The translations under genes and the position numbers were made by a program. This document shows, piece by piece, positions 4,922-64,000 of a stretch of 64,000 bases of DNA. Under the pieces are notes generated by a model that saw only the letters and a program-made list of their open reading frames with translations, did no database searches and was not told the origin of the DNA. The DNA is from Malachius bipustulatus (lineage: Eukaryota > Arthropoda > Insecta > Coleoptera > Melyridae): assembly GCA_910589415.1 (NCBI GenBank), contig OU342630.1, positions 19,563,867 through 19,627,866 on the forward strand. The letters are read 5' to 3'. Positions within the stretch are counted from its first letter, which is position 1. The number at the start of each line of letters is the position of its first letter.

Positions 4922-5821
4922 CAGGGTGTCCCATAATATGTGGGCAATCTCCCGGATTTGGGTAAATTTCGTAAAAATAAATTAAAAAATAGCTGTAAAA
5001 TTATTTTCTCAGAGACACCCCTACAAAGATATTAGCTGTTGAAGTTGAGGGTTGAAAATAAATTTTTTGCAATAACTTTTTTATTTCTTGACCGATTTTG
5101 ATAATTTTTGGTTTTATTTTGTACTATTTTGGACTGTTTAGAATAGTGTTTCATAATCTTTGGTAGCACATACATAGACCTCGGGATGGCATAACCCCCT
5201 CATTCACTTGAAAGAAAACAATAAAAATAATAATTTTACAGTTTTTTAAGGTTAATTTTCTTTTTATTTGATATTTTTTGCATAAAAAATGTATCCTTAT
5301 TTATTTCGATAGAGCGAACCGTTATCGAGATAAACGTCCTTCTAATAGGTGATGCGTCGCAGGAACTTTCTAAATTTCAAGTAAATTTTAACAAGATGGC
5401 TGACCTTTGACAGTAAATTGAGCAGGAAACAAAACAATAACTTAATTAAATACACGTCGAATAGTGTCAAAGATTTCATTTCATGCAGATTCAATTCTAA
5501 CTGATTTTAAAATGAGTTACGCACAAACGCTGAATACGCAGAAAATCAGTTAGAATTAAATCTGCATGAAATGAAATATTTGACACTGACGTGTATTTTA
5601 TCAAGTTATTGTTTTGTTTCCTGCTCAATTTACTGTAATTATCAAAATCGGGCAAGAAATAAAAAAGTTATTGCAAAAAATTTATTTTCAACCCTCAACT
5701 TCAACAGCTAATATCTTTGTAGGGGTGTCTCTGACGAAATAATTTTACAGCTATTTTTTAATTTATTTTTACGAAATTTACCCAAATTCGGGAGATAGCC
5801 CACATATTATGGGACACCCTG
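4922..5821. mobile_element. Foldback MITE with TA flanks
   Basis: A 900-bp unit from CAGGGTGTCCCATAATATG to its inverse, with TA outside both ends. The outer arms (4922-5110 and about 5635-5821) and the inner arms (5411-5513 and 5537-5640) are inverted copies. In the right half the two arm blocks are contiguous; in the left half about 300 bp (5111-5410) lie between them. So the unit is a long palindrome with either an insertion in the left arm or a deletion in the right. It sits head-to-tail against the preceding element (CCTGTATACAGGG). No coding frame. Confidence 0.8.
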
Positions 5822-5823
5822 TA

Positions 5824-7050
5824 TAGATGGCCTTTTAAAAATTAAGAATAATAGCACTTTGATTTCATATGCTGATGACACAGTGCTATTCGTAGAAGCT
5901 GGAACTATGAATGAATTAGAGGTAAACATGATAGCTGATATGCGGAGAATTATGGAGTGGTTTGACATAAACCTATTATCTGTGAATCTTAAAAAAACAA
6001 AATATCTCCTATTTGCAAATAATATCTTGAGAATGCCCAAAAATCAAAATACAAAAATTAATCTACCTCATAGACAGATACAATGGCCCATAGATAGGGC
6101 TAATAATACAAAATATTTGGGAGTCATATTTGACAGATACCTAAAATGAGATCTACATATAAAAAGGAGTTAGTAAGAAAAATCAGGTCGCTGTCATATC
6201 TTTTTCGACAGACAAAAAATATTCTTAGTTTGGATGAAAATAAGGTCCTTTATTATTCTTTGGTGTAGTCATTGTTGTTGTATGGGATAGTAGCATGGGG
6301 AGGTGCATATTATGCCATCACGATGAGGCCGCTGGAAGTAGTACAGAAGAGAATATTAAAGATTATTTATGGGTTAAGTACACTGTGTCCAACGGATGAG
6401 CTGTTTCAAAGTTGCAGAGTTTTATCCATACGAGAAATTTTTTATAAAGTTTCAGTCATTTACCTTGCCAGAAATGATTTGCTCCAGGCTGCAACACCAC
6501 ATAGATATGGGACTATAGAGAACAATGGGGAGAATATAAAACAGCCCACTGTTAGAAAGACTATAGGACAGAGATCATACTACTTCGTAGGACATAAAAC
6601 TTATAACACTCTATCAGTTGCACTGAAAAATGGCTTAAAGCATAAAAATGCAGGGGAAAAAATGACTATGTGGATGATAGAAAATAGACCCAAATTAATA
6701 AGATAATAAGATAGAGTTACTTTTTTGATTCTGTTCATGTCTCTGGATTTCGTATATTGTATTTGTTGTTTTTCTCTTTCCTTTATCTTCCAATATATGA
6801 AATATATATACCTGTTAATCTGTTGATCGGGAGTAGTAAAATATTATAATAGGTAACATTATAACTGCACGGAAACTTCAGACAAGTTTTTAAACTTACG
6901 CAATTTCCGAAGCAGAAGTTTTTCACATTTAGTATATTTATTATGTCTGCATTACATATTGAAAGTTTATTTTTGTGTGTGATTATTGTGTTGTGTTATT
7001 TAAAGTATTTGAATATTTAAATAAATTTATTATTATTATTATTATTAATA
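5824..7050 (+). pseudogene. Jockey-type LINE, 3' end with (TTA)n tail
   Basis: Starts inside the palm of a reverse transcriptase: LISYADDTVLFVEAG (about 5855-5900) carries the catalytic YADD. The frame continues through NTKYLGVIFDRYLK, meets a TGA (6147-6149), then reads RKIRSLSYLFRQTKNILSLD in another frame, a TAG at about 6267, and a 144-residue stretch (6272-6706) that begins LLYGIVAWGGAYYA. That last block is typical of the region after the RT in jockey/CR1-type LINEs. About 310 bp of 3' UTR follow, then AATAAA and a (TTA)n tail near 7027-7049. The 5' part is missing; the fragment begins exactly at the TA flank of the foldback MITE. Non-functional. Confidence 0.85.
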
Positions 7051-10716: not shown

Positions 10717-11498
10717 CTGCATTTGTATTTGTATTTGTATTTTTGAGGGTGATTAAGTTACAGCGACCAAAAAGATCTATTGTATCCCCTCTACTGTGCT
10801 TCGCCTGGTGTGGAATCCCTTTAGTGAAGCAGCCTCTCTAAGTCCGTTTCCTTGAGAAACTTCAGGATTTTGAGAGGATCAAGGTCGGGTAAGTTCCCTG
10901 CCTCTAGCTGGTGGTGGCCCAGAACATTACTTCTTTTGAGTTCTATCGCATCGCAGTTGAGCAGCAGGTGACGTGGTGTCTCGTCTTCTTTCCCGCAGAA
11001 TCTGCAGACGCCATTTTTATGTATGCCTAACTTTCTCAGGTGTTCCTTGAGCTTGCAATGTCTCGTTAGGAATCTCGCCAGTGTTCTGAGACGTTCCATG
11101 CTGAGAATGCTGAGGTTGAAGAGTATCTTCGACCTCTCTCGGTTAAAATTCCCGAGAAGTTCTTTGGCTTGTCTCCACCCCGAGAGGTTCCTCCAATGGG
11201 GTTTCTCTCAGTTTTCTTCTTCCTTTTGGAGTTCTGCTTGAAGAAAGTATCTTCGAAGCCACAGAATGTTTATGGTCCTATGAAGGGTGTCGATGCTCCT
11301 TTTTTTGCCAATGAGTGGGTATTCTTCTTGCGTTCGAGGTGGTCTCGAGCACAAGGATTGTTTAGATTGCCGACTGTCTTGACGGGTGACAAGCCCCGCT
11401 CGGTCGGCAGTCTGTTTTGCGGTGATGTCCCGCGATTTCTTGGTTTTTTGTTTCTTACCATGGTTGATCCCATGAGTAGCTAGGGAAGGGTGTTCCAC
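10717..11498 (-). pseudogene. LINE fragment: end of RNase H and C-terminal zinc knuckle
   Basis: On the minus strand the frames 11473-11270 (SLAKKGASTPFIGP), 11270-11208 (FLQAELQKEEEN) and 11099-10821 follow the same order as the C-terminal third of the longer LINE at 14.4-16.7 kb. The last block has the Cys-Cys-His-Cys knuckle in GVCRFCGKEDETPRHLLLNC and ends with a segment near-identical in design (LKILKFLKETDLERLLH). Frame changes show it is dead. The 3' end carries a tail of AAATAC-type repeats (plus strand 10718-10742, TTTGTA units). The RT and endonuclease parts are absent. Confidence 0.85.
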
Positions 11499-14396: not shown

Positions 14397-17225
14397 TCAT
14401 TGAAGCAGCCTCTCCAACTCCGCTTCCCTTAGGAATTTCAGGATTTGAAGGGGATCAAGGGCGGGCAAAGCCCCCCCGTTGAGCTGGTGTTGGCCCAGAA
14501 CATCGTTTCTTTCACGTTCTAGGGCTTCGCAGTTCATCAATAGGTGACGAGGCGTCTCGTTTTCTTCCCTGCAGAGTCTGCAAACGCCATCTTTTTCTAT
14601 ACCAAGTTTCCTCAGGTGTTCATTGAGCTTACAATGACCTGTTAGGAATCCTGTTAGCATTCTGAGACTTCCTTTGTTGAGGGTCAGGAGTTTCCTTGAC
14701 CTTTCTCGGTTAAAGTTCCCGAGGAGCTCCTTGGATTGTCTCAATCCTGAGAGGTTATTCCAATGGATTTCTCTCAGTTTTTCTTCTTCCTTCCGAAGTT
14801 CTGCCTTGAAAAACGCGTCTTCAAGGCTACAGAATGGTTCTGGTTCTATAAAAGGCGTCGATGCTCCTTTTCTTGCCAATGAGTGGGCACGTTCGTTTAC
14901 CTCAATCTCAGTGTGTCCTGTTATCCATTTGAGGTGAATTTTGTTCTCTCTGCCTAGTTTATTGAGTTTTTGTAGGCAGTTCCATGCCATTTTTGAGCTG
15001 ATGATAGGGGAGCACAGCGTCTTTATGGCTGCTTGACTGTCTGTCAGTATTGCTATTTCCCTATTTTTATAGTTTCTGTCAAGGTTTATTTGGGCGCATA
15101 CTTCTATTGCGTACAGTTCCGCTTGAAGTATGCTTGGGGATGTTCCCATCGGCTCGGAGTAGTTGGTGCCTGGCCCATATACTCCTGCCCCAGTTCTCTC
15201 GGTGGCCTTTGAGCCGTCTGTGTACCATTTTATTGTACCTTCTTTGAGAGTGTGAATGGATGTGTTGCTCCATTCTTCTTTCGTAGACAGTTCCATGATG
15301 AAGTTTTTCTTGAAGCTGAATTTCTTGACAGTCTTGTCTTTTGACATTATCAGGAGGTTTTTACAGATGTTCAGGGGTTGATTCCCCTCGATCCGTAGTC
15401 CCCCCCTGATCCCCATTCTTGACATTCTGAGTTGAGCCTCTGCGACACTTCTTTCAATCACTAAGTGCAGTTGTGTGAGATCTAGAATTACTTCCAACGC
15501 TGCTGTTGGGCATGTTCTCATTGCTCCTGTGATACAGAGGCATGCAAGTCTCTGGATCTTCTCGAGTGTTTTCCTCGCTGTTATTAGCTTGGTCCTCTTG
15601 TACCAGACGAGCGCTCCGTATGTGATGATGGGTCTCACTAGCATGGTGTACATCCAGCGTAAAATGGATGGGTTACAACCCCATGCATTCCCCGCCATTC
15701 TCCTGCACACCATGAGTACGGATGTGGCTTTACTTACTGTTGCACTTAAGTGCTTGTTCCACATTAGCTTCTTATCCAGTGTTATTTCCAGATATTTTAC
15801 TTCTTCCTTCCATTCTAACTCGACTCCATTCAAGTCAATGGTTTTTAGGTTTGGAAGATTGTTTTTTCTTGTGAATGGTATCAGTGTAGTTTTTGTAGGA
15901 TTGATGTTGAGTCCTATTTCTTGGCACCATTTCAAGGTTATCTTTAACCCCCTCTGTACTATGTCGCAGAGTGTTCCTTCAAATTTTCCTCTGGCCATGA
16001 TGACGATGTCATCGGCATACCCGATGCAGGTAATGCCGTTCTCGGTGAGTAACCCGAGGAGCTCGTCTACTACCAGGCTCCATAGGAGGGGGGATAACAC
16101 CCCTCCTTGTGGGCATCCTTTTGTTGTTTTCACCTGGATGGTGTCATCGCCCACTTTGATTCCAATTATTCTTGTGGACAGCATTTGTTGAATCCAATGG
16201 GATGTTGTGCTGTTAATGCCTTTTTTAGTTAGGGCTTTCTTGATAGCATCGTAAGAGGTGTTGTCGAATGCTCCTTTTATGTCCAGAAAGGCGCAAATGG
16301 CCGTTTCCTTGTACTCCAGAGTGTCCTGAATCTTTTCTGTCAGCTCATACAGGGCGGTCTCTGTCGATCTGCCCGCTCTGTATGCATGCTGGCTTGGGTG
16401 TAGTGGTCCCCTGTTCAGTGTTTCCGTTCTGATGTGATTATCAATGATTTTCTCCATCGTCTTTAGTAAGAAGGAGGTAAGACAGATAGGTCTAAATGAC
16501 TTCGGGAGAGAGGTGTCCTTTCTTCCTGCCTCAGGAATAAAGATGACTTGCGCCTTCCTCCAGGCTTGTGGTATATATCCCATAGTCAGGCTGCTTCTGA
16601 ATATTCTTACCAGGTGTGGCATGAGATCCTCCAGTCCTCTTTGCAGAAGAGCCGGAAATATGCCATCCACCCCGGGTGATTTGAATGGTTGAAAGGTGCC
16701 ATTTGCCCATTTCAGTCTTTCGGAGGTGCAGATGGTTTTCGCGACCTCCCAACCTTTTTTCGTGGGTTTACCAGATTCGAACGAATTCTCGTTCCCTACT
16801 TTCAGTGCACTGCCTGGAAAGTGGGTCTCTAGCAGAAGTAGAGCTCTTTGCTCTTCATTTTCTGTCTAGTTCCCATCAGGTTTTCTGAGCGACATTGTTC
16901 CCTGAGCAATGCCTTTCGCTAAAGCTTTGTGAAGTCTGGATGCTTCAGGTGTTGAGGTGATATCCCTGCAGAAGTCCCTGAAGCTCTTCCGTTTAGCTTT
17001 CCTGATTTCCTTATTGTAGGTTGTCAGTTCCGCCGTGTAGCCCTGCCAGTCTCCATCGCACTTGGCTTTATTGAAAAGCCTTCGAACTTCTGCCCGGAGC
17101 TTGGATAGGTGTTCGTCCGCCACGGAGTTTTCCTACAATTTCTTTTCTCTCTAATGAGGCAGCTGGATTCGTATGAATATTTCAGCGCTCCGTTGAGAGA
17201 TTCTAATGTTGCTTCTAATTCTAGA
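14397..17225 (-). pseudogene. LINE ORF2: reverse transcriptase - RNase H - zinc knuckle (nearly open)
   Basis: A 757-codon frame (16,670-14,397) holds most of a non-LTR polyprotein. Counted from its first Met, RT block FLDIKGAF lies at 128-135, GCPQGGVLSPLLW at 185-197 and catalytic YADD at 218-221. RNase H follows with D485 (YTDGSK), E518 (LQAELYA) and D544 (LTDSQAA). The final acidic residue expected in ERADSLA is His (ERAHSLA, 595). A knuckle CRLC..H..C lies at 697-714. Upstream the same frame runs on to 17,123, broken only by one TAG (16,866-16,868). A one-base shift near 17,115 joins it to a further coding stretch up to about 17,225, where the copy is 5'-truncated, so the endonuclease is missing. 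The domain order fits the R1/I-like, RNase H-bearing LINEs; the exact clade is uncertain. One stop and one shift suggest a fairly young insertion. Confidence 0.9.
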
Positions 17226-26122: not shown

Positions 26123-27332
26123 CAGAGCTGGGAGTATCTTCAAAAAAAAGATACTTTTCAGTATCTAAAATACAAAATTGTATCTGGTATCTTGTATCTG
26201 TAGATACTTTTTAAAATTATCTGTATCTTGTATCTACTTTTAAGTATCTAAGATACTTTGGGAAATAGATACTTTTTAAAGTATCTTGTATCTGTTTTTT
26301 TTTATATCTAAGATACTTTGTGAAATGGATGATACTTTTTCTACGTTGCAAGTTACGTCTTGCGCAACATTGCCCGTTTGATTATGTCTTGCATAAGGTC
26401 TAGGTGATCTGACATCAGGAAATTTTATAGTATTCCTTCTACAGTGTGACCAATTTGTTCATGAAACATCCTGTATAATCTTATTTAATTTAATAAGTAT
26501 AATCTTAATTTAATAAATTTATGAAAATTTTATATACCGAATTTCACATACCGAATTTTCATAAATTTATTCTAAAAGGTCAAAAGCTATCCATGAAAAA
26601 AACTTTAGGTATCTAACTGTCAAAAGTGACAAATAAATTTGTAAGATAATTCCAACAATACAGTACAACGTGTCTAGTGTTAATAAGCATTGAAATTGAA
26701 TTTGAAATTGTACGTCTAGTTTGATGATACTTTAATTTTTTTATTTTTATTTTTTTTTTTTAATTTCTAAAATAACTGCAAGATCCTTATTACTCTGACA
26801 TTTCCAATAAAATTTAGCACAGTACCGTTTTGAGGGCTGGTGAATCCTGTGGCGTGCCCAGTTATTTTTTCTAAAAAATCGCTAATATGAATTTTTGAGA
26901 TTTAACAAGTAAACACTGATCTAGAAGGCCTTGGATTTTGTAGGAATGAGACGCTTTTTGCTCCCAAAAGTTAGTTTACCAAGCTTTATGATTTAAAAGA
27001 AATCTTTTTAAAATCGCACCATAAGTTAAGATTATACAGGGTGTTTCAAGAACAAATGGGTCACACTGTATTTGTATTTTTCAAGTGGGTATCTTTAAGA
27101 AGTTTTTAGTAACCACAATACTTTTAGTATCTAAGACACTTTTAGTATCTAAGATACATTTAGTATCTAAGATACTTTTTAGAGTAGGTATCTTAGATAG
27201 TTTTAGAAGTATCTTGTATCTAAGATACTTTTGATTCTTAGTATCATTATGTAAATGTATCTTAAGATACTTTTTAGAAAGTATCTAGTATCTTGTATCT
27301 AGATACTTTTTAAAGTATCTTTCCCAGCACTG
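26123..27332. mobile_element. Element with CAGNGCTGGGA ends and GTATCT arrays
   Basis: The tips are CAGAGCTGGGAGTATC and, inverted from the right, CAGTGCTGGGAAAGATAC. Next to each tip lies a 200-bp zone packed with GTATCTT/AAGATAC words, many forming palindromes such as TATCTAAGATAC (26,130-26,340 and 27,110-27,320). Such tips with dense subterminal repeats resemble hAT-type elements. A GCAA word flanks both sides, but a full 8-bp duplication is not evident. No transposase; the middle is occupied by a nested MITE. Confidence 0.65.
26442..27068. mobile_element. MITE nested in the GTATCT element
   Basis: A 627-bp unit flanked by TA with about 38-bp inverted ends: CAGTGTGACCAATTTGTTC at the left, and CAGTGTGACCCATTTGTTC reading inward from the right. 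The inner side of each repeat reads CCTGTATA, so the repeat itself has a CAG...CTG shape. Non-coding. Confidence 0.8.
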
Positions 27333-37809: not shown

Positions 37810-40010
37810 CCACGTTTTAGTTATGCAAGTGAAATACGATGCTATAATTGTGGAGAGAAAAACCACAGAGCAAAATGCACATAATGTAAATCATAGAATT
37901 TGGGAACGAAATGTTTCAAATGCAACGAATTTGGGCACAAAGCACCAGGTTACCCAAAGAAGACTTTATCCTCCTTCTCAACAAGTGATGTCAAGTCAAG
38001 AACAATCAGAAGAATCAAACATGACGAACTAGATGACGAATAACACAAAATTATTTTCATTGATGGCAAGCAAGTAGTAGCGTTAGTTGACTTAGGCAGA
38101 AATGTTGTTACTTTGAAACAAAATACTTCAGATAAGTATGGAATTAAATATTTACCAACGACTATATTGCTGAAGAGGTTCGGCGAAGGAAAATGTCAAG
38201 TTATTGGGAAAAGAACCTTGGTTATAGAAGTAGATGGAATTCATATCGAAGTAGAAGTGCTTATCGTACCAAATAAAACCCAAGACAAAGAAATGATTAT
38301 CGGACGTTCTTCATTAGACAGACCAGAGTTGAGAGTGGTCAAAGAATAGAAGAAGTTGAAAATAGAGAAAGTAATGAAGATAAATAACGAAATAGATTGC
38401 AGTAAAATCACAACGTCACCGGAACTGAAAAATGAAATCAGAGAAGAGTTAATTGAAGTAATAAATCAACAGAGGACTGTATTCTCGAAGACTCTGGAAG
38501 AGATTGAAACTACTGATCTAGTGGAAATGAAAATAGAGCTAACGTCAAAAGAAGTTGTCCAATACAAACCCTATCGACTACCATATGCACATCGAGACGA
38601 AGTCAAGAGTGCGGTTGTGCTAGTGCCGAGAAACGTCGGTGGTAATCGGTTGTGTATTGACTACCGACGAGTTAACGTTTTTACGAGAAAGGAAAAGATG
38701 CCTATGTCCATTATAGAAGAACAGTCAGATCAATTGGCAAGTAATCGTGTTCTTACAAATTACAAATCTAGACTTGTTATGAGTCGGTATTACCAAATAC
38801 CTATCGACGAAGGTTCGAAACGGTATACATCATTTGTCGTGACTGATGAACAATATGAGTCTATTAAAGTGCCGTATGAAATAGTTAACGCGCCGACAGT
38901 GTTTAGCAAACTAATGAAGAAAGTTATACATAAAGAAAAGCTGAACCGCGTGTTAAGTGTCTTGAGAGAAATGGGACTGACATTAAAATTCGAAATGTAA
39001 ATTTTTGTGTCGTTAGATCGAGTATCTTAAATTTTAATGACACTGAAGGAGTGAGACCTGGTACGGAAAAAGTTAACGCTATCACAGAGTTTCCAAGACC
39101 TATGAATATCACTGAATTAAGTCGGTATGTGTTGATTATTTAGAAGATACGTCTCCAGTTTTTCACTGATAGCTGCACCTCTATCAGATTTGACTAAGAA
39201 GTCTCAACAATTTGAATGAATTCGAGCAAGTGAAGACGCTTATCAGAACCTCAAGAATGTTTAAGCAGTCAACCCGTTCTTACTTTAATAATCTGAAAGC
39301 TGAACATCAGGTTCATATAGACGCTAGCAGTATTGGTCTTGCTGGAATTCTACTACTTACAAGAAGAATTGGGAAAGTGGAAAACTTGTATGTTATTTCA
39401 GTAGAAAGACAACAGAACTAGAAGAGAAATATGACAGTTTCGAACTGGAAACATTAGCTGAAGTTGATAGTCTGGAAAATTTAAGATATAAATGTGTTGG
39501 GAAAATGTTTTACAGTAATAACTGACTGTAATTCACTGAAGACGATAATGAAAAACGAGACGTACGGCCCAGAATTGCAAGAGTGTTGTTGAATCTGGAA
39601 GAGTTAGATTTTTCGATAAACCCTAAAAAGTGACAGAATGGTTCACGTGGATGCACTTATTAGAAGACCAGTTGAATCGCCGAGAGATGTACCAGAAGCG
39701 GACCCAAAAGTGTATCCTTTACACATCGAAGAAGATGATTGGCTACTTACCATGCAACTTCAAATTCCATACCGTTAATTTGGACCATCTAGGATCATTT
39801 GTAAAAAGCAGTAGTCAACATGCTTATGTCTTGTTTTACCAAGAAAATTTTACGAAGTATTAAATAATTAAGGCTGTAAAGTCGACAAAGACGAAACCAG
39901 TGATAACAGTGTTAATGGAAATTTTTTGTTATTTTGGCACTCCGATCAGATTGATAACCGACAGAGGTACCGATATTACTTCAAAAGAATTTGAAAACTT
40001 GTGTGATGGC
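37810..40010 (+). pseudogene. Ty3/gypsy-type retroelement relic (gag knuckles to integrase)
   Basis: Fragments in several frames keep gag-pol order. Two CCHC-type zinc knuckles lie at about 37,830-37,950 (first reads CYNCGEKNHRAKC). A protease-like stretch runs 38,070-38,346, where the usual DTG-type active site is degraded to DLG. An RT stretch (38,356-39,000) contains LCIDYRRVN, but the segment that should hold the catalytic YxDD is missing between KVIHK and the next conserved helix. The RT-RNase H connection (IAAPLSDLTKKS) is near 39,165-39,205, RNase H-like codons (VHIDASSIGLAGI) near 39,310, and integrase core pieces with LDHLGSFV (about 39,779) and ITDRGT (about 39,950). No env-like frame or terminal repeats were found. 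Multiple shifts and stops; non-functional. Confidence 0.85.
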
Positions 40011-42940: not shown

Positions 42941-43083
42941 GATATATATATATATATTTATATATAATAATGATGATGTTAATGAGCGCAAAGAATTAAA
43001 AATTCAAAATAAAAATTAACGGGCATATCGCTCTAACCTAGGGCTTCCTGAGGCAGACCTGACACACAGAGCCATCCAGTCAT

Positions 43084-43143
43084 CTCGAAGCTGCAGACAA
43101 CGTTGCTTCGGTCTCTTAGACCTCATCAGTACAGCACATCGAG
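43084..43143 (-). ncRNA. Hammerhead ribozyme, copy 1 (mutated core)
   Basis: Same stems and CTGATGA core as the other three copies, but the second core strand reads GAAG in place of GAAA (plus-strand CTTC at 43,106-43,109). The changed base is the last A of GAAA, which pairs across the core next to the cleavage site. Self-cleavage would be expected to drop; this is inferred from known hammerhead mutants. Confidence 0.8.
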
Positions 43144-43181
43144 AAATAACTAGAGGATGCATGCCAGGCCAGCACAGGAAG

Positions 43182-43233
43182 CCAACTATATGAATAAAGA
43201 GGTGACACGGAACTCCGTGACCTCAATAGTTGG
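43182..43233. repeat. Second conserved hairpin of the 428-bp unit
   Basis: CCAACTAT pairs with ATAGTTGG 36 bases on. Within it GAGGT pairs with ACCTC and CACGG with CCGTG around an AACT loop, leaving a two-base GA bulge. The same sequence recurs in all four units. About 40-150 bases from the ribozyme; possible role as a recognition structure is inference. Confidence 0.65.
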
Positions 43234-43511
43234 TTGCCATCTACCGACGGAGACAAGAACTAAACGGCAGCACGCTACCAGCTTTGTGTCCATCAGGAAT
43301 AGGCAGCCCACAGTTCGGGGCATTACCATCCGTCGGGCGGTGCTGGTTAGCTACCGATAGATGTCTCTCGCCAAAGCCCATGGTTATTACAATAATAATG
43401 ATGATGTTAATGAGCGCAAAGAATTAAAAATTCAAAATAAAATTTAACGGGCATATCGCTCTAACCTAGGGCTTCCTGAGGCAGACCTGACACACAGAGC
43501 CATCCAGTCAT

Positions 43512-43571
43512 CTCGAAGCTGCAGACAACGTTGTTTCGGTCTCTTAGACCTCATCAGTACAGCACATCGAG
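43512..43571 (-). ncRNA. Hammerhead ribozyme, copy 2
   Basis: Type I hammerhead on the minus strand with intact core CTGATGA ... GAAA. Predicted cleavage lies just 3' of the base at 43,524 (minus strand), 428 bp from the same site in copy 1. Stems are as described for copy 3. Confidence 0.88.
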
Positions 43572-44011
43572 AAATAACTAGAGGATGCATGCCAGGCCAG
43601 CACAGGAAGCCAACTATATGAATAAAGAGGTGACACGGAACTCCGTGACCTCAATAGTTGGTTGCCATCTACCGACGGAGACAAGAACTAAACGGCAGCA
43701 CGCTACCAGCTTTGTGTCCATCAGGAATAGGATCTTTGCGCTCATTAACATCATCATTATTATTGTAATAACCATGGGCTTTGGCGAGAGACATCTATCG
43801 GTAGCTAACCAGCACCGCCCGACGGATGGTAATGCCCCGAACTGTGGGCTGCCTATTCCTGATGGACACAAAGCTGGTAGTGTGCTGCCGTTTAGTTCTT
43901 GTCTCCGTCGGTAGATGGCAACCAACTATTGAGGTCACGGAGTTCCGTGTCACCTCTTTATTCATATAGTTGGCTTCCTGTGCTGGCCTGGCATGCATCC
44001 TCTAGTTATTT

Positions 44012-44071
44012 CTCGATGTGCTGTACTGATGAGGTCTAAGAGACCGAAACAACGTTGTCTGCAGCTTCGAG
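44012..44071 (+). ncRNA. Hammerhead ribozyme, copy 3
   Basis: A complete type I hammerhead. Stem I: CTCGA (44,012-16) with TCGAG (44,067-71) and GCTGTA (44,020-25) with TGCAGC (44,060-65), separated by an internal loop TGT/T of the kind used for loop-loop contacts. Core CTGATGA (44,026-32). Stem II: GGTCT-AAG-AGACC (44,033-45). Core GAAA (44,046-49). Stem III is very short: CA-ACGT-TG (44,050-57). The cleavage site TC lies at 44,058-59, with the cut expected after 44,059. The tiny stem III is what is known for hammerheads of Penelope-like elements and animal retrozymes, which are thought to work best as dimers. Confidence 0.92.
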
Positions 44072-44439
44072 ATGACTGGATGGCTCTGTGTGTCAGGTCT
44101 GCCTCAGGAAGCCCTAGGTTAGAGCGATATGCCCGTTAAATTTTATTTTGAATTTTTAATTCTTTGCGCTCATTAACATCATCATTATTATTGTAATAAC
44201 CATGGGCTTTGGCGAGAGACATCTATCGGTAGCTAACCAGCACCGCCCGACGGATGGTAATGCCCCGAACTGTGGGCTGCCTATTCCTGATGGACACAAA
44301 GCTGGTAGCGTACTGCCGTTTAGTTCTTGTCTCCGTCGGTAGATGGCAACCAACTATTGAGGTCACGGAGTTCCGTGTCACCTCTTTATTCATATAGTTG
44401 GCTTCCTGTGCTGGCCTGGCATGCATCCTCTAGTTATTT

Positions 44440-44499
44440 CTCGATGTGCTGTACTGATGAGGTCTAAGAGACCGAAACAACGTTGTCTGCAGCTTCGAG
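44440..44499 (+). ncRNA. Hammerhead ribozyme, copy 4
   Basis: Identical in core and stems to copy 3: CTGATGA at 44,454-60, GGTCT-AAG-AGACC at 44,461-73, GAAA at 44,474-77, predicted cut after 44,487. The distance to the cut of copy 3 is exactly 428, so a transcript through both would release a 428-nt RNA. Confidence 0.92.
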
Positions 44500-44577
44500 A
44501 TGACTGGATGGCTCTGTGTGTCAGGTCTGCCTCAGGAAGCCCTAGGTTAGAGCGATATGCCCGTTAAATTTTATTTT

Positions 44578-45129
44578 GTATTTATATATATATATATATA
44601 TATATTTATTTATTTCTCCAAAATCACGATTTTTCGATTTTAAAAACGCTCCTGTAGCTTTATCTTTCAAGATTAGTGAACGAAATTTTGGATTCTTGTA
44701 AAGCTTGGGAATGACTTTAGATTTTCGTTGAAAAAAAATCCAAAAGTCACGTTACTTCTACAGGGTGTCCTTTCAAAGTTCCCCAAATGCGGTCCTTGAG
44801 GCACGGTTTCTGGCCGCAGTTTTCAATCTAGGGGGCTGAAACTTTTGTGAGAGTAAGATGTCCACAAGGAGTGGTCTGGTATTGCACTTGAGCCAAATCG
44901 GCCGAGCCGTTTCAAAATGGCGGCCATTTGAATTTTTTGAACATTAACGGAAAATTGACAATTTTTTGAACCATTGTATGAGCAAGATGGCAAAAAAACT
45001 TTGAAATCAAATTAACAGGATTTGAAGAAAATTATTGGAAATTTGAGTTAATGCAATAAAATTAGCATATTTTCCATTAATAAGCCAGTGTCGTGGGTAG
45101 GAAAAAGGGTGAAAATGTGTCAATTCTAT
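44578..45129. other. (AT)n tract, then a MITE-like end; no gene
   Basis: An (AT)n tract at about 44,580-44,606 borders the hammerhead repeat. At 44,761 CAGGGTGTCCTTTCAAAGTT looks like the left end of a CAGGGTG-type element; its partner was not found. Confidence 0.5.
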
Positions 45130-56756: not shown

Positions 56757-57607
56757 TCGCAGCATAGCGGCAATTTCGAATTAAGTTCAATATTGCTCGT
56801 CACGGGAGAATTCCATCTGCGCATGCCATAAAGGAGTGGGTTCGGAAATTTGAAGAAACGGGATCAGTTATTAATGTCAAACATAAGGGACCAAACAGAA
56901 GTGTCAGAAATCTGGAGAACATTAATCAAGTTAGAGCAAGTGTAGAGCGCAGTCCAAAACGTTCAAGTCGAAAGCAAAGCCAGGCCCTGGGCTTATCTAG
57001 GACTACGTTTCTTCGAATTTTGCACAAGGATCTCAATTTCCATCCTTACAAAATCCAGATTGTCCAAGCATTGAAACCAACAGATCTTCCTGCTCGTCTA
57101 CATTTTGCTGAAACGATCCTACAGCATTAAATTGACGTTCACAATTTATGGATGTCTGATGAAGCACATTTCCATTTATCTGGCTATACCAACAAACAAA
57201 ACAGCCATTATTGGGCCTTGGAAAATCCACAAGAACTTCATCAACACCCGTTACACAGCCAGAAGGTAATAGTTTGGTGCGCAGTATCTTCAATGGGAAT
57301 CATAGGTCCTTATTTTTTTGAGGATCATAATGAAAATGCTTTAACAGTCAATGCTGCACGCTATACTGATATGATTAACCAGTTCCTTACACAGCAACTG
57401 AACATGTTTCCACAAAACAATAGTTGGTTCCAGCAAGATGGCGCTACTTCACATAGCGCAAGACTATCAATGGATTCCGTGCGAAGATTGTTTCCAGGTC
57501 GCGTGATCTCGAAACACGGAGACATTGAGTGGCCACCAAGATCGCATTTAAAAGAGAATAAAATTTTGAATCGTATTCTGTCGTTACGTACAGGGCGTGC
57601 TATTTAA
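56757..57607 (+). pseudogene. Tc1/mariner-type DDE transposase, C-terminally broken
   Basis: One frame is open from about 56,768 to 57,607 except for a TAA at 57,128-57,130. It begins with a helix-turn-helix part (RIPSAHAIKEWVRKFEETGS), a second one (RKQSQALGLSRTTFLRIL), then the first catalytic block WMSDEAHFHLSGYTN, VIVWCAVSSMGIIGPYFF, the second block WFQQDGATSHSA, and DIEWPPRS. Directly after WPPRS the expected DLTP...DFFLWG, which holds the third catalytic residue, is replaced by unrelated residues and a stop. So the triad is incomplete even without the internal TAA. Best preserved of the three mariner-like copies. Confidence 0.88.
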
Positions 57608-59945: not shown

Positions 59946-62490
59946 ATAAGAGTCTCATAAAATTAAAGTGTGAGTTAAGATGTAATATAATAATAATTAT
60001 TAATTGCTACATATTTCTAATCAACAGTATTATTAAAACACCCTATATATAATATTGGCCTGCTATTTTACTTTCCATCTTGAGCAGAAATTTTCCATTA
60101 GAAATTAATTTTAGTCAGTACCCACATCCTGATACGCCCTGTGGGCAATTCAAAACTTCGTGAGATTCCGATCGATTTCCATAATGTATATTCCTAGCTG
60201 CAGATGAAAAAGTGATATTGCTTGAAAATATTTCATACGCCACAAGCTAGGATACTTACTTTTAGAGGAAATTGAGTCAAGGAGAATATACGGTATCAGA
60301 GAAAAATTAAATTTAGGAATTCCAGTGGCCTTGGTAAACCGTCCCTGTTCTACATACAAATGATACTAGAGGACGCGTATTCATCACCATCTAAATCAGG
60401 ATCGTTCCTTCTCTCTCGCTCCCTCTTTCATGTTTGTATCTGTTCGCTTCCTTGATTCAACTACGATCTGGGCTCCCTTTCAAGTTAATTTCTTCTTTGA
60501 TCCGGGAACGCTTTTTACAGCCCTTGCAAATTTTGTTTGTGGTTTGGTGACAGGACAGTCGCCATCTACACACATGTAACATGTAACAGACATTACCGAA
60601 TTAGGGGCAGATGCAGGAGCAGTCGAACAACCTCGTCATCTAATGTTACGTGAAATTTTGTATCAAATTTATTAGAGAGTTTATGCACTAATTTAATGGA
60701 GCGGATATTTTTAGGTTGTTAGAGTAATTTTACGCAGCAAATTGAGTTATGTAAATTGAGAGAGAGGGATATGAAATTTATCACATTATGGTATGTGCGA
60801 TTAAACTTTAAACGTTAACTCATGACTATATTTGTCTGAAGCCACTTTGGATGCATAAACCGGGATCATAAATAAATTGTTCAGTATAAAATAACTTATA
60901 ACTACATAACTGCTGCCTGAATTTCAATTTTTGTTATCTCTTTAACTATTAACATATAATATTTTCAACTTTTGAGTTTTACTTCGTTACGCAGGGTTAT
61001 TTATGGCTTACTGTGAGACCTGGGAGCCAGCTTTCATCAATTGCACAATCTGGCTTCAATTAATGTACTGTTTTCTGAAGTTTTGTGGATATATTATTCT
61101 TAAGTACTTTTTAAATTCGGTATTCCTTAGACTCATTTGTAAAGCTTAACGATTTTATTATTTCTTAGTATTATGTTATCGACTAGAGATTCGATTATAG
61201 AAATAATGGTACGATGTTGCTTGTTCAAGGGCAAAGTTTTATACATAAAATGCTTTCCTCTTCCTCATTGATCTGTGCTCCTCTGGCTAGTATAATGTCG
61301 CTGCTATTCCCAATCGGAACTCTAGCACAACTTTCAGGTGAATGAAACGTATCTTCCTCGCCATGTATAATATGTAGTCGAACGCTTATTCCATCTCCCA
61401 TCGTGTGGCGTCTGCAGCTAGAGCTGCCACTTTCCCCGATCTTCCTCGCAGTCCTCCATCACGTTCTTCCATTCGCACTGAAAACTTCATGTATCATCAT
61501 TACATTTACCAGTTACTGACCGCTGTTAAGATATGTTAGCGTCTTGAGCTCCTTCACCCGCTCTGAGACTTGGTCGATCTGCACCTAGGTTTCATTACAC
61601 AAACTTCATAAATCAACGCGACCTACCATATTTGAATCATCTTCCTGTTTCTTTTTTATGAATTTGCGAATATATCTCGCAAAATAGTCCCTTGACTTAA
61701 TGGGTCTGCTTCGATTTTGCTCCGGCATCTTCATGTGCAATGTGGTGCGCTGTATTTTTAGGCGTTCAATTTTTCATTGTAGTCAAGTCAAAGTAGGGTT
61801 TAATTATTGATAATCCATCCGTTGTTCTTCTCTGGCGTTTAGGGAAGTGGGTATCGTCAGTTTAGCTTTAGGTTTATACAAATTGCTAGCCGGAGGATAT
61901 TGTCCAAGAATTACAAACTCGTAGCAACCGATATGTTTTTTTGCAGAAGTGGCATTGTCTTGTGACAATATTCTCTCAATCTCCACGTATGCAGCATTTC
62001 CTAGGAAAAGATGCGATTTTAGGTTTTCCTTCACTGTTCGTTCAACCAAGGTAAATTTTATGATAAATAAGCTTATTTCGAGTTTTCTGAGGTTTATTGC
62101 ATTCTTCCATTGGCTTAGCATATGGATTTAAAACACCAAGGTTTCAACGATGCTTTCTACAAGAAGGTATACTTACCAAGAATTTTCTTTTATAAAATGA
62201 CCCCATATCTAAACTAAGTCAAAGAACACAATCAGAACAAAGCATGCTAAATAAAAAGATAAAAGAAAAAATATTGAAATATAATAAGATTTTTGCAGCA
62301 GAATCCTTTAGGATAAATTCTTATAACTAAGTTTCTTAAAAGGCCAACAAGATATGAACTTGTTAACGGATGTCTAAAAAATAATACAACACATCTCAAT
62401 GAAACGTAGAAATACCTATAGTTATTACCTCCGATATATGTATAGACGTGTTTACGGTTTTTGGGTTTTAGGTTCTACTTAAAAAACATC
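59946..62490. other. No gene recognised
   Basis: Mixed sequence. The part at about 61,240-61,560 is less AT-rich but has no convincing frame or splice pair. A 105-codon minus-strand frame (62,121-61,804) resembles coding sequence slightly, without a motif. Confidence 0.4.
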
Positions 62491-62514
62491 AATAATAATA
62501 ATAATAATAATAAT
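62491..62514 (+). repeat. (AAT)8 microsatellite at LINE boundary
   Basis: Eight AAT units directly before the R4/Dong-type fragment. Dong-type LINEs are known to insert into TAA repeats, so this may be target sequence. Confidence 0.85.
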
Positions 62515-62520
62515 ATACAT

Positions 62521-64000
62521 ATGAAACCACCATCCAAAGAACAAATAACAGAATTTTGGAGAAACATGATATGGTCGAACCCAACCCATCATAATGACAA
62601 AGCAGAATGGATAAAACAGGAAATACGCAAACAGCAGAAAACACCTCAACAAACAGACTACGAAATCACTCAAGAAAAACTAAGCCACACAATCAGAAAA
62701 ACACAAAACTGTAAGTGCCCAGGCCCAGACAAACTACACAACTACTGGTATAAACAGTTCACTTCAGTGCATACAAACCTTGTCAACCAAATAAACAATA
62801 TAATCCAAAACCCACATCTCACACCACACTTCCTCACAGAGGGCGCAACATACATAAAACCTAAAAACCAACAAACAGAAAACCCAGACAACTACAGACC
62901 CATCACGTGTTTATCCACTTTATATAAAATAATTATAGCCATCATGTGTAACAAAATAGAGAATCACCTTACTACAGACAACATTCTCACCGAAGAACAG
63001 AAGGGATGCCGCAGGGGCGACAAAGGCTGTAAGAAACAACTTATAATAGACACCGCCATAATGAAACAAGCAGAAAAAAATAAGAGAAATATCCACATTG
63101 CCCACATAGACTATAAAAAAGCTTTCGACATGATACCACACAGCTGGCTTTCGAAAATCCTGCAGATCTACAAAATACACCCCATAATCGAACAATTCTT
63201 AACAACAATCATGAATAACTGGAGAACAAAAATCATCCTAATACAAATTCAGAAATCATACAAACGGACCAGATAAATATCCGACGTGGTATTTTCCAGG
63301 GAGACGCATTGAGCGCCTTATGGTTCTGCCTCTCTCTGAATCCACTATCAAACACTCTCAATAACACCAAACTTGGCTACCAAATCAAACATAACAAACA
63401 GGTTATCTACATCATAAACCATCTAATGTATATAGACGACATTAAAATCTACACATCAACGCGACCACAATTATAATAGTTACTCGGAACAATAGAAACA
63501 ATATCAACAGGCATAAAAATGGAGTTCGGAGTGGATAAATGCAAAACACTTCACCTGGAAAATGGGAAACTAACTCAGGAACCAAATCATCAAGTACTGA
63601 ATAATCAAACATTGCAACAACTACACCCTAATGACTTTTATAAATACCTGGGATTTCAACAAAGCTTCAAACTTAATCACACCAAAATAAAATCACAGCT
63701 CCAAGCAGAATATGAAAAAAGACTAAATCAACTTCTTAAAACACACTTGAACTCCGGAAACCTATTTAAAGCAATTAACACTTACGCGATCTCCATTCTT
63801 AGCTACTCCTTCGGAATCATCAAATGGTCGACCATAGACCTGGAAAACATTAACATACGAACAAGAACTGCCCTAACGAAAAATAGAATACTCATGTATT
63901 GCACCCCAACTCATGTAAGGAAAGATTCACCATAAGCAGAAAAGAAGGAGGGAGAGGAATAATAGACCTACATTAACTACATGCCAAACAATTGAATTCA
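62521..64000 (+). pseudogene. R4/Dong-type LINE fragment (runs off the window)
   Basis: A 5'-truncated RT. The first frame (to about 63,238) has CKCPGPDKLHNYWYKQF, NPDNYRPITCLSTLYKII and IAHIDYKKAFDMIPHSWL, the last with a catalytic Asp. A frameshift near 63,238 leads to RRGIFQGDALSALWFCLSL and LMYIDDIKIYTS with the catalytic YIDD (about 63,429-63,440). TAA-TAG stops at about 63,475, then MEFGVDKCKTLHLENGK, YKYLGFQQSF, INTYAISILSYSFGIIKWS and finally EGGRGIIDLH near 63,945-63,975. The order and wording are those of the R4/Dong clade. The zinc-finger start is absent and the restriction-like endonuclease end lies beyond the window. Non-functional. Confidence 0.85.

Follow-up and report, generated by a model that had tools for sequence, protein, structure and literature searches.

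The window (the whole 64-kb stretch of DNA that was analysed) contains a 428-bp unit in two opposed arms, a minus-strand arm that is joined head-to-head to a plus-strand arm (Table 1). By homology, the element occupies positions 42964-44578 in an AT tract, and both of its outer edges are located within AT tracts. An earlier sequence-only reading had placed it at 42966..44577 and described it as a tandem repeat of four 428-bp units. The locus was borne out, but its exact bounds were not. The period was also correct, as tandem-repeat analysis gives 428. Four copies of the motif are indeed present, but the arms are inverted head-to-head and carry two motifs per strand. Similarly, the proposed 'dimer' is right insofar as tandem units are present, but neither arm amounts to two complete units.

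Table 1. Coordinates of the features of the locus, given as positions in the window. Unit position 1 corresponds to 43733.
Feature	Position	Strand	Remarks
Left arm, inverted copies	42964..43731	-	768 nt = 1.79 units; unit position 120 through position 31 of a third, incomplete unit
Right arm, direct copies	43733..44578	+	846 nt = 1.98 units; unit position 1 through position 418 of the second unit
Head-to-head junction base	43732..43732	.	Single base, fits neither arm
Tail-like 3' extension, left arm only	42964..43004	-	38-41 nt past the right-arm end point
Hammerhead motif 1	44012..44071	+	Intact core; predicted cut after 44059
Hammerhead motif 2	44440..44499	+	Intact core; predicted cut after 44487
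Hammerhead motif 3	43512..43571	-	Intact core; predicted cut after 43524
Hammerhead motif 4	43084..43143	-	A15.1G change in the core; predicted cut after 43096
Predicted 428-nt RNA between right-arm cuts	44060..44487	+	
Predicted 428-nt RNA between left-arm cuts	43096..43523	-	Putative; second site has a changed core
Possible target-site duplication, left copy TATTTATAT	42955..42963	.	12 bp counting 3 ambiguous bases
Possible target-site duplication, right copy TATTTATAT	44579..44587	.	

The two arms are 99% alike but differ in where within the unit they begin and end, and each unique flank occurs only once. The head of the right arm comprises 119 nt that are absent from the left arm. The left arm has a tail-like extension at its 3' end, the length of which becomes 30-33 nt if the right end is set at 44586, where BLAST ends. 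Inspection by eye found no palindrome at the head-to-head junction, and the 3' ends of both arms lack a poly(A) stretch. Both edges of the element are abutted by TATTTATAT, which could be a target-site duplication of 9-12 bp. Since 53 of the 288 boundary pairs in AT tracts share a 9-mer, we treat this duplication as weak evidence.

The locus contains two ORFs of at least 100 aa, both of which span the head-to-head junction and neither of which has a Pfam domain. Judged on ORFs of this size, the locus is devoid of recognisable coding. The 64-kb window holds no further copy of the unit, the best other match being 28 nt long (E 0.045). Viral and prokaryote contig collections, which comprise no insect genomes, gave 0 matches to the hammerhead patterns or to another segment of the unit.

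Each arm carries two type I hammerhead motifs 428 bp apart. All four share the CTGATGA sequence, stem II GGTCT-AAG-AGACC, GAA, stem III CA-ACGT-TG and a C as the cleavage base, and their stem I consists of 6 + 5 bp around an internal loop. The sequence-only reading had described these three stems and a 428-bp spacing of the cut sites within each arm, and we confirm the stems, as well as this spacing of the predicted cuts, in the four motifs. It had also claimed a full hammerhead in each unit. The motif is present in all four cases, but the core is intact in only 3/4, with motif 4 having GAAG in place of GAAA (A15.1G at 43129, minus strand). Wild-type ribozymes are at least 10-fold more active than the 15.1 and 16.1 mutants that had been examined previously (PMC3088659).

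A strict motif descriptor, which was drawn up after the motifs had been seen, gives 3 matches in the window versus 0 in 500 dinucleotide shuffles (both strands). By this descriptor, the hammerheads are beyond chance. A looser descriptor finds 4 matches in the window versus 9 in 150 shuffles, or about 0.06 per shuffle. The outcome of a covariance-model search, which had been suggested as a check, depends on the threshold. Only in a permissive Rfam search of 1751 bases are all four motifs listed as Hammerhead_HH9, three with a score of 25.1 bits and one with 21.8 bits (E values between 0.0019 and 0.022), whereas at the gathering score, which is 52 bits for Hammerhead_HH9, nothing is found in the 64-kb window.

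Folding programs disregard the tertiary contacts of hammerheads, and all energies given here are those of a nearest-neighbour model without loop-loop contacts. For a 70-nt piece, the single active fold has an energy of -17.4 versus -20.4 for the optimum, i.e. it is 3 kcal/mol worse. In a two-unit transcript, the pairing probability is 0.13 for the closing pair of stem I and about 0.01 for stem III. The ten bases ACAACGTTGT form a perfect palindrome, and hence two motifs can pair as a dimeric ribozyme with a 10-bp stem III, the modelled energy of which is -49.5 versus -40.8 for two unconstrained single motifs. The right-arm monomer, modelled as a 428-nt circle, has an MFE of -147.5 kcal/mol versus -118.5 ± 5.9 in 100 shuffles (z -4.9). 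In this circle 65% of the bases are paired, which is below the 'above 70%' given for other animal units (PMC4918200), and the ribozyme core is partly paired to the strand beside the cut site.

The rest of the window contains several other repeats and remnants of mobile elements. A Pfam scan of its 34 ORFs of at least 100 aa found a reverse transcriptase in three (one below the cut-off), RNase H in one, a zinc-binding reverse transcriptase domain in two (one below the cut-off), an aspartyl protease in one and a helix-turn-helix in one. An 822-aa stop-to-stop ORF at 14397-16865 on the minus strand has reverse transcriptase and RNase H domains and 58% identity to the best relative listed. One of the listed relatives is named Lian-aa1 retrotransposon protein, and the ORF is probably a LINE of the LOA/Lian type. 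Among the best 120 of its 875 homologues, six rows name an organism, and the five species are Bactrocera tryoni, Plutella xylostella, Cyamophila willieti (two rows), Episyrphus balteatus and Nesidiocoris tenuis, all of them insects. The sequence-only reading had placed the element in an insect, and these rows support such a host, albeit indirectly because the ORF belongs to a mobile element. A 128-aa ORF at 10821-11207 on the minus strand matches the zinc-binding domain of reverse transcriptases; its end resembles, by eye, that of the 822-aa ORF, and it may represent another copy, now broken, of a related LINE.

On the plus strand, a reverse transcriptase match too weak to reach the Pfam cut-off is followed by an ORF without a match at 5799-6706, probably a decayed LINE, and an aspartyl protease match at 38044-39000 is followed by a Pfam-negative ORF that looks, by eye, like part of the polymerase of an LTR element. 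Two adjoining ORFs at 56768-57607 (plus strand), the first with a helix-turn-helix domain (DUF4817), are probably a decayed transposase. Another reverse transcriptase fragment is found at 62446-63935 on the plus strand, in an ORF that has (AAT)8 at 62491-62515 ahead of the domain. R4/Dong elements insert in TAA repeats, and this fragment with its (AAT)8 is reminiscent of such an element. Finally, several short tandem repeats with a common GTATCTAAG-like word are located at 26223-27232.

Animal non-LTR retrozymes are described as tandem units of 150-450 bp with a type I hammerhead, a GC content below 50% and no LTR. Their unit RNAs are self-paired and found as circles, and insects are among the hosts listed (PMC7229834). 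Members of this class also lack a primer binding site and a polypurine tract and occur in many genomic copies. Of the features compared, the locus matches most. Its unit length of 428 bp falls within the range, with slightly fewer than two units per arm; every unit carries a type I hammerhead, although one of the cores is changed; no ORF of at least 100 aa has recognisable coding capacity; the GC content is 47.2%; and the predicted RNA is more strongly self-paired than its shuffles, but less so than the published units. The duplications of retrozymes, where present, are longer than 4 bp, and the 9-12 bp repeat seen here would agree with this, but it lies in an AT tract. Hence, the sequence fits an animal-type (non-LTR) retrozyme. 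The earlier description of the locus as retrozyme-like is thus supported by the unit size, the type I hammerhead, the tandem copies, the absence of Pfam domains from the ORFs, the GC content and the self-pairing.

Among the closest known systems are the retrozymes of Cervera and de la Pena 2020, which have a non-coding unit of a few hundred bp with one type I hammerhead each. The locus is likened to this class by its features and not by family sequences, and its 428-bp unit is near the upper end of the published range (PMC7229834). Furthermore, the sections consulted describe retrozymes as tandem arrays and do not mention tandem arms placed head-to-head or a one-sided 3' extension, as seen here (PMC7229834). 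The repeat-type hammerhead of Aedes aegypti also has a palindromic stem III plus loop and could form a 10-bp dimer stem (PMC3088659). However, the Aedes RNA showed no cleavage in its authors' test (PMC3088659), and the likeness drawn here is one of motif design. The pDo500 repeat of cave crickets is another insect tandem repeat with a hammerhead, which was proposed to act singly or paired (PMC2837043), but it is a satellite DNA family, whereas the four motifs described here lie in two opposed arms at a single site. A plant LTR retrozyme was considered and rejected, as it has a type III hammerhead, a length of about 700 bp and a 4-bp duplication (PMC7229834, PMC7761336, PMC4918200).

The copies vary at four sites (43881, 44312, 43106 and 43015), each of which is private to one copy, and 0/4 of these sites separate the two arms, with some unit positions being held by fewer than four copies. 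As independent insertions of a varied family should differ by arm and all the sites are private, a single template and one young insertion would be the simplest history, and a very uniform family would also be compatible with this pattern. The arms would fit either a circular template or an uncut multimer. A fold-back origin, in which one arm serves to copy the other, was considered and rejected because each arm has an end sequence that is missing from the other. In particular, simple fold-back from the right arm would not account for the left arm, which extends 38-41 nt further in the 3' direction. Simple fold-back would not explain both arms, whereas priming of one template on both cut strands would.

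Penelope-like elements have been named a strong candidate for the mobilization of animal retrozymes on the basis of shared features (PMC7229834). The sequence-only reading had offered 'Penelope-derived' as an alternative to retrozyme-like. This was not borne out, as GIY-YIG has no Pfam match in any of the 34 window ORFs of at least 100 aa, and the locus itself has no ORF with a reverse transcriptase and GIY-YIG. Penelope elements also have a minimal hammerhead (PMC7761336), whereas the motifs described here have a stem III.

The layout of the insertion, of which the sequence-only reading made no use, does resemble that of Penelope elements. In rotifers, a Pen2a_Av insertion contains two direct and one inverted pLTR, head-to-head being the commonest form; an optional 31-bp tail occurs at the 3' end of the inverted pLTR, and the example described has a 9-bp duplication (PMC3846280). 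In AT-rich DNA, both strands are cut and then extended by a purified protein of the Penelope type, which begins copying at two sites inside the RNA, the optional 30-40 bp tail being the stretch between them (PMC11167929). The locus has direct and inverted copies in its arms, an extension of 38-41 nt and an AT tract as its target. It thus shares with both the rotifer and the anole insertions the direct and head-to-head inverted copies and the type I hammerhead (PMC3846280, PMC11167929), with the rotifer insertion a tail-like extension on the inverted copy and possibly the 9-bp duplication (PMC3846280), and with the anole element the AT-rich target (PMC11167929). In our partial coverage of the literature, we did not come across retrozyme insertions that are head-to-head and bear a Penelope tail.

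A rotifer Penelope element also mobilized, in trans, an unrelated gene that came to lie between its pLTRs, and the same authors saw no cross-mobilization between Penelope types (PMC3846280). In vitro, the anole element still inserted when its hammerhead was mutated (PMC11167929). The rotifer authors ascribe head-to-head copies to self-priming on an antisense template, involving palindromes at the junction, and not to priming on two strands (PMC3846280).

Not all of these similarities carry weight. The length of the tail alone is weak evidence because the AT-rich part of the unit falls exactly there. The right arm ends 91 nt past the predicted cut, and the main start site of the anole PAc element is at 85-92 nt, as derived from the numbers in PMC11167929. 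We give this agreement no weight because the ends of pLTRs relative to the ORF start vary among Penelope families; the rotifer pLTR, for example, includes the first 12 codons (PMC3846280). Taken in combination, the layout of the insertion points to Penelope mobilization, a reading to which we give about an even chance.

The whole account, which we consider probable, is that of a non-coding and non-autonomous retrozyme that is processed by its hammerheads and mobilized by Penelope machinery with priming on both strands. Judging by published relatives, transcripts of the tandem copies would be cut once per unit by the type I hammerhead, and the palindromic stem III would let two motifs pair into a dimeric ribozyme. 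By the same analogy, a host RNA ligase would probably circularize the 428-nt product. Both strands of the AT tract would probably be cut by a Penelope-type reverse transcriptase/GIY-YIG endonuclease that is provided in trans. Each cut end would prime one multi-unit copy of the same template, resulting in two tandem arms head-to-head, as the anatomy of the locus suggests. In its most specific form, namely that Penelope machinery, starting on both cut strands of one target at once, copied a small ribozyme RNA that was foreign to it and probably circular, and left a start-site tail on one cDNA, the proposal is a tentative one with somewhat less than an even chance.

Two other routes to such an insertion involve retroelements. 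The retrozyme could have been moved by a LINE (e.g. of the LOA type), in which case twin priming on an RNA circle or multimer would produce the head-to-head inversion. Twin priming produces a 5'-to-5' inversion, and the LOA/Lian-like 822-aa reverse transcriptase ORF is located in the same window. Published work also leaves LINEs open as helpers (PMC7229834). However, neither 3' end has a poly(A) stretch, twin priming of a linear single-unit template is not expected to give a full overlap of the arms, and an extended inverted arm has been described for Penelope elements (PMC3846280), all of which make this route unlikely in our opinion. Alternatively, the locus could be a pLTR-like remnant or a non-autonomous derivative of a Penelope element itself and not belong to a free retrozyme family, since pLTRs bear type I hammerheads and occur as direct and inverted copies (PMC7761336, PMC3846280). 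For this to be true, one would have to accept two tandem units per arm with nothing between them, a hammerhead that, unlike the minimal Penelope forms (PMC7761336), has a stem III as well as a long stem I interrupted by an internal loop, and two ORFs of at least 100 aa without a Pfam domain, and we find it quite improbable.

The similarity of the arms, which are 99% alike, could in principle also be due to a chromosomal inverted duplication or an assembly error involving an ordinary tandem hammerhead repeat, and hammerhead satellites such as pDo500 do occur in insects (PMC2837043). But the two arms do not share their end points within the unit, and the unique flanks are single. For the same reasons, unequal arm ends and flanks that are not duplicated, we rejected a palindrome formed via chromosomal duplication. 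A satellite would be a long array, and with fewer than two units per arm, opposed arms and no further copy in the window, a satellite array was rejected as well. An origin by duplication or misassembly is therefore very unlikely.

The head-to-head layout would also have consequences for the RNA. The arms comprise 735 bp of paired sequence with 120 nt between the arms. A read-through transcript would fold as a 735-bp hairpin, thus hiding the ribozymes, and this hairpin RNA may be a source of silencing small RNAs against the family. Furthermore, a young insertion that combines a retrozyme unit with a Penelope layout makes the question of the helper testable via the ends and orientations of the copies in one genome. 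If the locus is indeed a footprint of Penelope machinery, it would tell which enzyme moves animal retrozymes and would show priming on both strands, one step of Penelope insertion, in vivo.
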